Part shown: one piece after another, positions 22,867 to 26,516 of the stretch
Numbering within the stretch: position 1 is the stretch's first letter
How the letters are laid out: each line of letters starts with the position of its first letter
From: Desulfofarcimen acetoxidans DSM 771
GTDB lineage: Bacteria > Bacillota > Desulfotomaculia > Desulfotomaculales > Desulfofarciminaceae
NCBI RefSeq assembly: GCF_000024205.1
Contig: NC_013216.1
Span: forward strand, 310,001 to 374,000
Direction: 5' to 3'
DNA length: 64,000 nucleotides
The notes under the pieces: model-generated
What the model was told of the DNA's origin: nothing
What the model saw: the letters and a program-made list of their open reading frames with translations, nothing else
Databases searched by the model: none
Made by a program: the position numbers and the translations under genes

Positions 22867-22976
22867 ATTTTAGCAGGAAATCCATAAATAATACAGAACA
22901 TAGAAATAGAGCTATAATGAAAAATCAGAGAATAATTTTTCGGAAATTTGATAGCCGCTCATATTGGGGGTATTAC

Positions 22977-23798
22977 ATGGACAATGCAACAATATTTACA
23001 ACAGCACTATTGGTGGGTTTTTCCGGAGCTATCATGCCGGGTCCTTTGTTGACTGTAACTATTATGCAAACAGTTGTTAAAGGATTTAAAGCCGGGCTGC
23101 TGATTGTGTTGGGCCATGCTATACTGGAAGCTTTGCTGGTTGCCGCTTTAGTTTTGGGATTAGCCTCTTTCTTGGTTCAATCAGAAGTAAAGTCTCTTAT
23201 TGCAGTAGTCGGTGGGGTGTTTTTAATATATCTGGGTTTTAGTATGGCCCGCTCTTCTCGCGTCAGCTTTAATGCTGTAAACCCGTCACTAAAAATAGAA
23301 AACATTTGGCAGCAAAATGTTGCCGGTGAATATGACAAGCAATGCAAACTAAGAAATGAGCATTATGAAGAATCTTTACCATCTAACAATGGCGGTCCTG
23401 AGAAGGAGCGACTGAGTCATCATGATAGCCGGTATAACTCTGAGACATCATTTAGCGGGAATATAAAAGCAGGTGGTCTCCACGGTGTCTCAATGCATCC
23501 TGTGCTTGCCGGGATACTGGTATCATTGTCCAACCCGTATTGGTCTATCTGGTGGGCCACACTGGGATTAAGTTATATTACACTGGCCCTGGAAAATGGA
23601 ACAGCCGGCCTGCTTTCTTTCTTCAGCGGTCATATACTGGCGGATTTTATCTGGTATGCACTGGTCGCAGCAGCTGTTGCCGGGAGTCGAAACTTTATAA
23701 AACCTGCAATATATAGGGTTATAGTTCTGATCTGTGCTGTATTTCTTGTTGTTCTGGGAGGCTATTTTATACACAGTGGAATATGGGTGCATGTCTAA
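22977..23798 (+). CDS. LysE/RhtB-family exporter with a large hydrophilic insert
   Basis: LysE-type proteins export amino acids or other small solutes. The N-terminal half (LVGFSGAIMPGPLLTVTIMQTV, then GHAILEALLVAALVLG) and C-terminal half (LSNPYWSIWWATLGLSYI, FFSGHILADFIWY) match the family. ATG 22977 is chosen after TTGGGGG; an in-frame ATG at 22917 would add 20 polar residues. The product is 273 residues against about 205 for the family, because a charged loop of roughly 75 residues lies between the third and fourth membrane segments (after residue ~100). The substrate is unknown. Confidence 0.8.
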   Translation: MDNATIFTTALLVGFSGAIMPGPLLTVTIMQTVVKGFKAGLLIVLGHAILEALLVAALVLGLASFLVQSEVKSLIAVVGGVFLIYLGFSMARSSRVSFNAVNPSLKIENIWQQNVAGEYDKQCKLRNEHYEESLPSNNGGPEKERLSHHDSRYNSETSFSGNIKAGGLHGVSMHPVLAGILVSLSNPYWSIWWATLGLSYITLALENGTAGLLSFFSGHILADFIWYALVAAAVAGSRNFIKPAIYRVIVLICAVFLVVLGGYFIHSGIWVHV

Positions 23799-23865: not shown

Positions 23866-23966
23866 GATTAGTATCCTGATGAAAACGGATAAATAACAGA
23901 TCAAAGTCTATTTTCTCATTGAATCCTTAAGTCACTAATGAAATGTGCGAAGGGAAGTGTTTTTAT

Positions 23967-25370
23967 ATGTCACTGGTTTATAGTGCAGTGTGTCCTCACC
24001 CGCCTATAGTTGTCCCGGAAGTTGGAGGAAAGGAAGCCGCTCAGGTTAAAAACACGGCGGAGGCTATGTTGGAAATAGGCAGGAGAATTAAAAGCAGCGG
24101 TGCTGAAATATTAATCATGATATCACCTCACAGCCCGGTGTTTGAGGATGCGATAGCTATTCACGGCAACAAGACTTTGCATGGAAACTTGGGACGGTTT
24201 GGCGCTTCACAAGTGGCGTTTACTTTAACCTGTGAGACCGGCCTGGTTGAACAAATTATAAAAACGGCCAATGAAAACGGGATACTGGCAGTTGAGCTCA
24301 ATCAGCAGCTAGCGGGTAAGTATAAAATCAGTTTGGAACTGGACCACGGCTTAATGGTTCCACTGTATTTTCTGCGACAGTCAGGAGTGGAACTGCCTGT
24401 GGTAGCAATTGCTGTGGGATTACTGCCTTTTGAAGAACTATATGCCTTTGGTATAGCTGTCCAAAGAGCAGTGCAGAATTATAGCAAAAAGGCTGCTCTT
24501 TTGGCCAGCGGAGATATGTCTCATTGCTTAAAAAAAGGTGCTCCTTGCGGCTATGATCCCAAGGGCGAGGAATTTGACCGGGCGATTGTACGTCTGACCG
24601 CTGCTGCTGATGTCGAAGGAATAATCGGGATGCAGCCGGAACTGTTAGAGAGAGCCGCTGAGTGTGGCTTTCGCCCGCTGCTGATGCTGCTTGGCGCATT
24701 AGACGGCTATAAAATCAAATCGGAAGTTCTTAGTTACGAAGGCCCGTTTGGTGTGGGTTATATGGTTGCCTCTCTGGCACCGCAAGAAATATCGTTAGAT
24801 AGAAAATTCAGCCACAGGTGGTTGGAAATAAGAGAAGAACAAGTAGCGCTGCGCCGCAGTAATGAGAGTTATTTGGTGCAGCTTGCCAGAAACAGTTTGG
24901 AAAGTAATATATTGGGTAAGTCTATGGATATGGATACAGGGCAGGCGCCGCCCGAATTTAGAAAAAAGTCCGGAGTTTTTGTCTGCATCAAAAAAGAAGG
25001 TCGCCTAAGAGGTTGTATTGGTACAGTTTTTCCCCAGCAAAAGAGTATTGCCGACGAGGTAGTTGTCAACGCGGTGAGCGCCGGTCTGCACGATCACCGT
25101 TTTCCACGGGTGCAGCCAGAGGAACTGTCTGATCTGGTTTACAGCGTGGATGTATTGACTGAACCTGAAGCTATAAGCAGTATTAAACAGCTTGATCCCG
25201 CGAAATACGGTGTAATAGTTCGCAGCGGGCATAAGTCAGGATTGTTATTGCCTAATTTGGAAGGCGTGGACAACGTGGAACAACAGGTGCAAATAGCCAG
25301 AGAAAAAGCCGGTATTCGGGTTGATCAAGATGTTTCACTGGAACGCTTTGAAGTAATTAGATACAGTTAA
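23967..25370 (+). CDS. Fused AmmeMemoRadiSam protein B (MEMO1) and A (AMMECR1)
   Basis: The 467-residue product is two domains in one chain. Residues 1 to ~265 are MEMO-like, a fold related to extradiol dioxygenases, with the metal-site candidates CPHPPIVVPEVG, SPHSPVFED, DHGLMVPLYFLR and SGDMSHCLK. Residues ~285-467 are AMMECR1, with its hallmark LRGCIG near residues 346-352. Genes for these two and a radical SAM enzyme form the AmmeMemoRadiSam system in anaerobes, found as separate or fused genes; the reaction is not known to me. ATG 23967 follows AAGGGAAG; an upstream ATG at 23943 lacks a site. The radical SAM partner is next. Confidence 0.9.
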   Translation: MSLVYSAVCPHPPIVVPEVGGKEAAQVKNTAEAMLEIGRRIKSSGAEILIMISPHSPVFEDAIAIHGNKTLHGNLGRFGASQVAFTLTCETGLVEQIIKTANENGILAVELNQQLAGKYKISLELDHGLMVPLYFLRQSGVELPVVAIAVGLLPFEELYAFGIAVQRAVQNYSKKAALLASGDMSHCLKKGAPCGYDPKGEEFDRAIVRLTAAADVEGIIGMQPELLERAAECGFRPLLMLLGALDGYKIKSEVLSYEGPFGVGYMVASLAPQEISLDRKFSHRWLEIREEQVALRRSNESYLVQLARNSLESNILGKSMDMDTGQAPPEFRKKSGVFVCIKKEGRLRGCIGTVFPQQKSIADEVVVNAVSAGLHDHRFPRVQPEELSDLVYSVDVLTEPEAISSIKQLDPAKYGVIVRSGHKSGLLLPNLEGVDNVEQQVQIAREKAGIRVDQDVSLERFEVIRYS

Positions 25371-25430
25371 GTTCTATACGGCACCGGAGCAGCTGCTGTC
25401 CGAATATTAATCGTCATAATTTTCAACGAC

Positions 25431-25478
25431 CACAAGTGCCTGTGGCTGCTCAAAAGTCACTTAAGGCGACTCTCTTGT
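25431..25478 (+). repeat. Structured repeat, copy 2 (three-stem element)
   Basis: Same plan as 1413-1460: outer stem ACAAG/CTTGT (25432-25436 with 25474-25478), inner GCC-TGT-GGC hairpin and an AGTC...GACT hairpin. Compared with copy 1, the outer stem changed G-C to A-T on both sides, so pairing is kept. A T-rich tract follows, so it may also act as a terminator before the radical SAM gene. Confidence 0.55.
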
Positions 25479-25514
25479 TTATTTATTTTTTAGACGGTGG
25501 ATGTGAGAATAATT

Positions 25515-26516
25515 ATGCGGGAAGCAATGTATTATGAAAAAAAAGAAAATAATTTGGCAGCCTGTCGTCTCTGTCCTAAGCTTTGCACCATAAGGGAAAA
25601 CAGGACAGGCTTCTGCCGGGCGCGAAAAAATATCGGAGGTACACTTTACTCTTTAAATTATGGGGAGTGTTCTTCACATGCTATCGACCCTATTGAAAAA
25701 AAGCCGCTTTACCACTTCTATCCCGGAACAAATATACTTTCACTGGGTACTTTTGGCTGTAACCTGCGCTGTGGTTTTTGCCAGAACTGGTCTATTGCTC
25801 ACGAAACCCCTCATACTGTAGGGATAACTCCGGAGCAGGTGCTAGATATCTTCCGGCAGCAGGCAGCTGATGTTAACTGTATCGGTTTGGCCTATACTTA
25901 TTCTGAGCCTCTCATGTGGTATGAGTTTGTCCTTGATACAGCAAAACTGATTCATGCTGCGGGATTTAAAAATGTCCTGGTTACTAACGGGTATATTGGG
26001 GAAGAACCTCTTAGAGAAATAATACCATATATTGATGCCATGAATATAGATATAAAGGGATTTACTGAAGAGTACTACCATAAAACCTGTATCGGCAATT
26101 TGTCCCCGGTTTTGCGTACTGTGGAGATAGCTGTTTCACAAAATTGCCATGTTGAACTAACCACTTTATTAATCACAGGCTTAAACGACAGTGAAGAGGA
26201 AATAAGTAATCTTGTGAACTGGATAGCGGGAGTAAATAAGAATATACCGCTGCATTTCTCAAGATATTTTCCTAATTACCAAATGAATTTACCGGCAACG
26301 CCACTGGAAACACTTAAAATAGCCTGCAGTATGGCAAAAGAGAAGCTTAACTATGTGTATGCCGGTAATGCTGCGGAATTAAATGTGAGTAATACCGTGT
26401 GTCCCCAATGCGGTGAAGTAATAATCAGTCGCTTAGGTTACAGAACAAGGATTGAAGGGCTAAAGGATAGCAGGTGCATGCACTGTGGGGAAAAAATATA
26501 TATTGTGCAGGATTAA
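25515..26516 (+). CDS. amrS: AmmeMemoRadiSam system radical SAM enzyme AmrS
   Basis: Radical SAM enzyme of the same system as the preceding gene. The 4Fe-4S motif CNLRCGFC uses cysteines near residues 82, 86 and 89. There are further cysteine clusters at both ends (CRLCPKLC near residue 15; CPQCGEV and CMHCGE near the C-terminus), typical of the family and of PFL-activase-like relatives. ATG 25515 gives the family start MREAMYYEKKE; GTG 25497 in frame is an alternative. The product is 333 residues. Confidence 0.9.
   Translation: MREAMYYEKKENNLAACRLCPKLCTIRENRTGFCRARKNIGGTLYSLNYGECSSHAIDPIEKKPLYHFYPGTNILSLGTFGCNLRCGFCQNWSIAHETPHTVGITPEQVLDIFRQQAADVNCIGLAYTYSEPLMWYEFVLDTAKLIHAAGFKNVLVTNGYIGEEPLREIIPYIDAMNIDIKGFTEEYYHKTCIGNLSPVLRTVEIAVSQNCHVELTTLLITGLNDSEEEISNLVNWIAGVNKNIPLHFSRYFPNYQMNLPATPLETLKIACSMAKEKLNYVYAGNAAELNVSNTVCPQCGEVIISRLGYRTRIEGLKDSRCMHCGEKIYIVQD

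Follow-up and report, generated by a model that had tools for sequence, protein, structure and literature searches.

We analysed a window of 64,000 nucleotides from the genome of Desulfofarcimen acetoxidans DSM 771; positions are those of the window, and all features of the two genes described here lie on the plus strand. At 23967..25370 the window carries a gene that fuses a LigB/MEMO-like domain to an AMMECR1 domain in a protein of 467 residues, encoded by one open frame (23943-25370). ATG 23967, where the homologues begin, is the likelier start and the in-frame ATG upstream at 23943 the less likely one. The N-terminal domain, of the class III dioxygenase/MEMO fold, occupies residues 1-270 (23967..24776) and matches Pfam LigB (PF02900) over residues 7-267 with 163.7 bits (cut-off 26.3). 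On the same polypeptide, residues 304-464 (24876..25358) form the AMMECR1 domain (PF01871, 150.9 bits, cut-off 25). An intergenic gap of 126 bases (25371..25496), for which no terminator-like sites are listed, separates the fusion gene from the gene for the radical SAM enzyme AmrS (25497..26516, 339 residues, with an alternative ATG at 25515).

Three NCBIfam models, all above their cut-offs, together with the adjacency of the genes identify the locus as an AmmeMemoRadiSam system. The fusion protein matches TIGR04335 (protein A; 125.4 bits, cut-off 99) and, weakly and over residues 123-257 only, TIGR04336 (protein B; 31.1 bits, cut-off 26), and the second gene product matches TIGR04337 (radical SAM enzyme; 319.3 bits, cut-off 220). 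A sequence-only reading of this DNA had proposed just this, namely an AmmeMemoRadiSam system with a fused MEMO/AMMECR1 polypeptide beside a radical SAM gene, and the open frames and the Pfam and NCBIfam matches bear out both the identity and the coordinates. The system is known and widespread and the fusion is ordinary. As cited in PMC7159879, the system was already described by Burroughs et al. (2019, J Biol Chem 294:10211).

The genome of D. acetoxidans (a single contig of 4,545,624 bases) holds one copy of the fusion and, by profile search, no match to Pfam Memo (PF01875). A fusion homologue is present in 38 of 40 relatives, including all 37 of high quality. From at least 581 relatives picked up by two search patterns, we fetched the 80 best loci for comparison, and 79 of them encode the same fusion in a single frame. 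The uninterrupted frame in nearly all fetched loci and the homologue in every high-quality relative argue that the fusion is not a product of chance. AmrS lies on the same strand less than 1 kb from the fusion in 69/79 loci (median gap 18 bases), and 3.9-6.6 kb away in three more. At the remaining seven, no AmrS frame above 150 bits was found at the locus: three have a partial AmrS at the contig end, one contig stops 139 bases past the fusion, two (L103 and L121) have AmrS elsewhere in the genome, and one (L139) remains without. The fusion beside AmrS is the standard and very common arrangement in the relatives fetched and is not unusual.

In a sample of 199 genomes of the phylum, 155 contain AMMECR1 (TIGR04335) and 154 contain AmrS (TIGR04337, best E < 1e-30); 152 genomes have both, 2 have AmrS only, 3 have AMMECR1 only and 42 have neither. 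The three genomes with AMMECR1 and no AmrS match better than E 1e-30 are G021, G161 and G182.

Two further arrangements bear on cooperation. A Chloroflexi contig (L132) carries a split version, with three adjacent genes for AmrS, a LigB/MEMO-like protein and AMMECR1. In Segatella hominis (L213), a Pfam Memo domain (193.7 bits) is fused to AMMECR1 (166.5 bits) and followed by amrS, in what looks like a second, independent fusion event. That AMMECR1 has been fused to two different Memo-superfamily domains, each time next to this radical enzyme, argues for parts that work together. The sequence-only reading had gone further and proposed direct cooperation of the fused domains on one substrate. 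Cooperation is well supported by the co-inheritance, the adjacency in 69/79 loci, the split version and the Segatella fusion, while the single substrate is inferred.

The Segatella fusion and its amrS (L213:3077-5494) are on a 317-kb record filed as a plasmid; in a collection of 10 plasmid records, which supplied the Segatella and HpaD sequences, none has a place covering 80% of the fusion. A draft genome of Candidatus Subteraquimicrobium (L103, L201, L204, L208) has separate contigs for the fusion, for a canonical Memo and for two copies of AmrS, possibly through contamination.

Next, we investigated the N-terminal domain, which had been called MEMO1 in the sequence-only reading. By profile and fold it is not a plain MEMO1, lying instead between MEMO and the LigB-type dioxygenases. 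The window protein has no match to PF01875 at E<=0.001, a level at which 34 of 60 aligned fusion members (alignment A3, the window plus 59 of the 80 loci) do match. Profile searches of the PDB returned TK2203, HpaD and aminophenol dioxygenases, and human MEMO1 was not among the 15 matches listed. The predicted structure of the fusion protein (mean pLDDT 94.3, pTM 0.86) is closest to TK2203 (5hee; Z 33.9, rmsd 2.9, 260 aligned). Other extradiol dioxygenases score Z 22-30 (aminophenol dioxygenases about 29-30, HpaD 29.2, LigB 25.0) and human MEMO1 scores Z 19.9 (rmsd 3.0, 230 aligned). An hhalign comparison with HpaD gave E 3.4e-16 over 249 columns. By both sequence and fold, the domain thus has more in common with class III extradiol dioxygenases than with MEMO1.

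For the MEMO side of the comparison, the reference was a canonical Memo (L201), which itself aligns with human MEMO1 at E 3.8e-17; when the N-terminal domain was compared with the Memo domain of Segatella by hhalign, the match lacked significance (probability 3%). The phylum also has standalone Pfam Memo proteins (L142-L153), which were rejected as references: a usable frame was obtained for 4 of 12, all four with lipoprotein-like signals (by eye), and a PDB search with one of them returned only weak unrelated matches and no MEMO1. Four standalone Memo-like proteins (L146, L149, L150 and L153) carry lipoprotein-like signal sequences and, by eye, no MEMO1 cysteine motif; they probably form an extracytoplasmic Memo branch.

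Residues of the predicted metal pocket were counted in an 80-row alignment of fusion sequences (the window plus 79 loci, the split L132 being left out). Two histidines are predicted metal ligands: His11 (codon 23997..23999), conserved in 79/80 with a gap in the remaining sequence, and His55 (24129..24131), conserved in 80/80. Their equivalence to MEMO1 H49 and H81 is drawn from order and motif only, as the significant hhalign stretch starts after both. His127 (24345..24347), a MEMO-type residue equivalent to MEMO1 H131, is found in 75/80. The active-site motif Asp183-x-Ser185-His186 (24513..24524; MEMO1 D189/H192) is present in 80/80, a count biased by the search, as the patterns contain D183, S185, H186 and SYEGPFGV and their conservation is partly by construction. 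H11, H55, H127, E232, C233 and C350 are outside both patterns. Glu232-Cys233 (24660..24665) supplies two candidate third ligands, the glutamate at the dioxygenase position and the cysteine at that of MEMO1 C244. Cys233 is invariant (80/80), and the residue before it is Glu in 74 sequences, Gln in 5 and Val in 1. The six MEMO-type residues occur together in 74/80 sequences, and together with Glu232 in 68/80.

According to PMC11081632, iron in human MEMO1 is held by H49, H81 and C244, and dioxygenases use His, His and Glu. In the fusion protein, His127, Asp183, His186 and Cys233 align with Memo His, Asp, His and Cys (hhalign to L201). Glu232 aligns with the dioxygenase glutamate in both the PDB profile and the HpaD hhalign, and the Memo and HpaD alignments differ by one residue on which of the pair is the ligand position. 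The 2-His-1-Glu set of H11, H55 and E232 is there, yet the invariant residue is the adjacent cysteine. The sequences thus predict a metal-binding site with MEMO-type residues and a mixed Glu-Cys position inside a dioxygenase-like fold.

A first alternative is that the N-terminal domain functions as an extradiol dioxygenase and cleaves an aromatic ring with oxygen. The best Pfam match (LigB), the HpaD alignment, the dioxygenase structures and Glu232 at the dioxygenase glutamate position all favour it, but HpaD has Tyr, Ser and Gly in place of His127, Asp183 and Cys233, and the protein is linked to a radical SAM enzyme, and such enzymes are usually sensitive to oxygen. The genome survey also argues against it. 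A strong COX1 match (E<=3.3e-146, a cut-off set after the table was inspected) was obtained for 15 genomes, none of which has AMMECR1, against 155/184 others that do (Fisher p 1.7e-11, with related genomes not independent). Among all 31 genomes with any COX1 match, AMMECR1 is found in 14, all of which fall among the 16 weaker matches, and these may be other members of the heme-copper family. The genome of D. acetoxidans, a strict anaerobe, has no COX1 match. AMMECR1 was matched in the archaeal controls Haloferax and Sulfolobus, which we take to be aerobes; in Haloferax volcanii neither AmrS nor Memo was matched. Most hosts in the phylum appear to be anaerobes, and the role of the system there is likely oxygen-independent. 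We therefore regard a ring-opening dioxygenase as very improbable.

A second alternative would make the fused protein a metal or redox handler, an iron or copper binder for which AmrS would be a client or have a separate function. For human MEMO1, PMC11081632 and PMC11918410 report binding of iron and copper and no dioxygenase activity on the substrates tried, in line with such a role. The conservation of pocket residues beyond the ligands and the near-complete co-inheritance with AmrS are nevertheless better explained by an enzyme, and we consider a pure metal handler unlikely.

The C-terminal domain resembles archaeal AMMECR1 structures (1vaj, Z 18.7; 1zq7, Z 18.4; 1wsc, Z 16.3). Its motif Arg348-Gly-Cys350-Ile-Gly352 (25008..25022) is nearly invariant, with R, G, C and G in 80/80 sequences and I in 79/80.

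The second gene product, AmrS, has a confidently predicted structure (mean pLDDT 95.5, pTM 0.93), and its closest solved fold is the pyruvate formate-lyase activating enzyme 3cb8 (Z 23.9, rmsd 2.3, 227 aligned), followed by NifB (Z 18.1) and QueE (Z 16.8). Conservation was counted over 72 sequences (the window plus 71 frames, those under 250 residues being dropped); alignment A4 holds the window and 42 of these 71 frames. The radical SAM motif C88-x3-C92-x2-C95 (25758..25781) is invariant (each cysteine 72/72), and an N-terminal site of four cysteines, C23, C26, C30 and C40 (25563..25616), is nearly so (each 71/72). A C-terminal CxxC...CxxC ribbon (26400..26486) is optional in the family (48-50/72). 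D185, K187 and H253 are likewise invariant (72/72), and D185-x-K187 aligns with the D-L-K of PFL-AE; we take it to be the SAM-binding D-x-K, from the role assumed for that motif.

The resemblance raises the possibility that AmrS is an activase, which, in the manner of glycyl-radical activases, would place a radical or other modification on the fused protein, the modified protein being the working enzyme. Besides the fold and the aligned D-x-K, the best non-self NCBIfam match of AmrS is the glycyl-radical activase model PflA (TIGR02493), and a protein partner is adjacent nearly always. The PflA match, however, is far under its cut-off (64.5 vs 231.75 bits), the fold of the fused protein is not that of a glycyl-radical enzyme, and some genomes have AMMECR1 without AmrS. 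Because of the AmrS fold match we keep activation in consideration, as a rather unlikely explanation.

Taken together, we lean, somewhat cautiously, towards a joint mechanism in which the fused protein and AmrS act on one substrate, AmrS performing a radical step and the fusion a metal-dependent step. In such a scheme, the N-terminal domain would bind Fe(II) through His11, His55 and Cys233 and/or Glu232, with His127, Asp183 and His186 around the pocket. With its invariant RGCIG region, the AMMECR1 domain may aid substrate binding or supply the missing part of the active site. AmrS, with a [4Fe-4S] cluster and SAM, would generate a 5'-deoxyadenosyl radical for one step on the shared substrate, and the metal domain would carry out the other step, presumably without oxygen as co-substrate because the hosts in the phylum seem to be mostly anaerobes. 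Against the joint mechanism stands the presence of AMMECR1 without AmrS in 3 of the 155 sampled AMMECR1 genomes and in the control Haloferax volcanii. A more speculative proposal, which we hold to be distinctly unlikely, is that the fused domain survives as a link between extradiol dioxygenases and MEMO, with a metal site that holds the glutamate of the former and the cysteine of the latter. It would run an oxygen-free metal reaction in anaerobes and would be activated or fed by AmrS through a radical on the protein or the substrate.

Genomic context was considered as a clue to the substrate and rejected, the recurrent neighbours in the 80 clustered loci being housekeeping synteny: cwlD (30 loci and the window), argC (14, with further arginine genes) and cdaA (10). 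Other neighbours shared with the window, named by eye, are genes for ribosomal proteins L13/S9, truA and ABC/ECF transporter genes. A gene for a LysE-type exporter (22917-23798) lies directly upstream of the fusion gene and has relatives in 7/80 loci. The exporter has 293 residues here and 210-304 in its relatives, apparently owing to an internal loop of variable length. The rhomboid gene downstream of the pair recurs in none of the 80 loci. For the Memo clade, Burroughs et al. (2019) are said to have proposed nucleobase or isoprenoid modification, and gene context in the phylum speaks neither for nor against it.

The sequence-only reading had stated that the reaction was not known; our literature search, which most subscription papers were outside, found no published reaction for the system and no enzymology assigning one. 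MEMO1 and AMMECR1 are conserved across archaea, bacteria and humans, and the literature searched gave no reaction for either protein. PMC5502304 links AMMECR1 to a developmental disorder in humans. The fused bacterial protein with its single adjacent partner offers a compact system for finding the MEMO1/AMMECR1 reaction. A specific and testable handle is the Glu232-Cys233 pair, conserved within a dioxygenase-like site in hosts that seem to be mostly anaerobic.

Finally, we compared the locus with known systems. It differs from the AmmeMemoRadiSam system as defined by TIGR04335, TIGR04336 and TIGR04337 in that proteins B and A form one polypeptide, of which the B part is barely over its cut-off. 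The Segatella hominis locus is like the window in order, a B-A fusion followed by amrS, but has an unambiguous Pfam Memo domain at the N-terminus where the window protein has LigB. Human MEMO1 (3bcz, 7kq8) has the same fold, with pocket residues that match through the canonical Memo L201. In structural alignment, however, it shares only 15-16% identity with the fusion and scores below the dioxygenases; its chain has no AMMECR1 domain, and the fusion has Glu232 next to the cysteine. TK2203 of Thermococcus kodakarensis and the HpaD and aminophenol dioxygenases are the closest folds, and PF02900 is common to HpaD and the fusion, but the HpaD tested has no AMMECR1 match and lacks the MEMO-type His, Asp and Cys. 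On the radical side, the pyruvate formate-lyase activating enzyme (3cb8, 3c8f) is closest in fold to AmrS, which additionally has the N-terminal site of four cysteines and often also the ribbon at its C-terminus.
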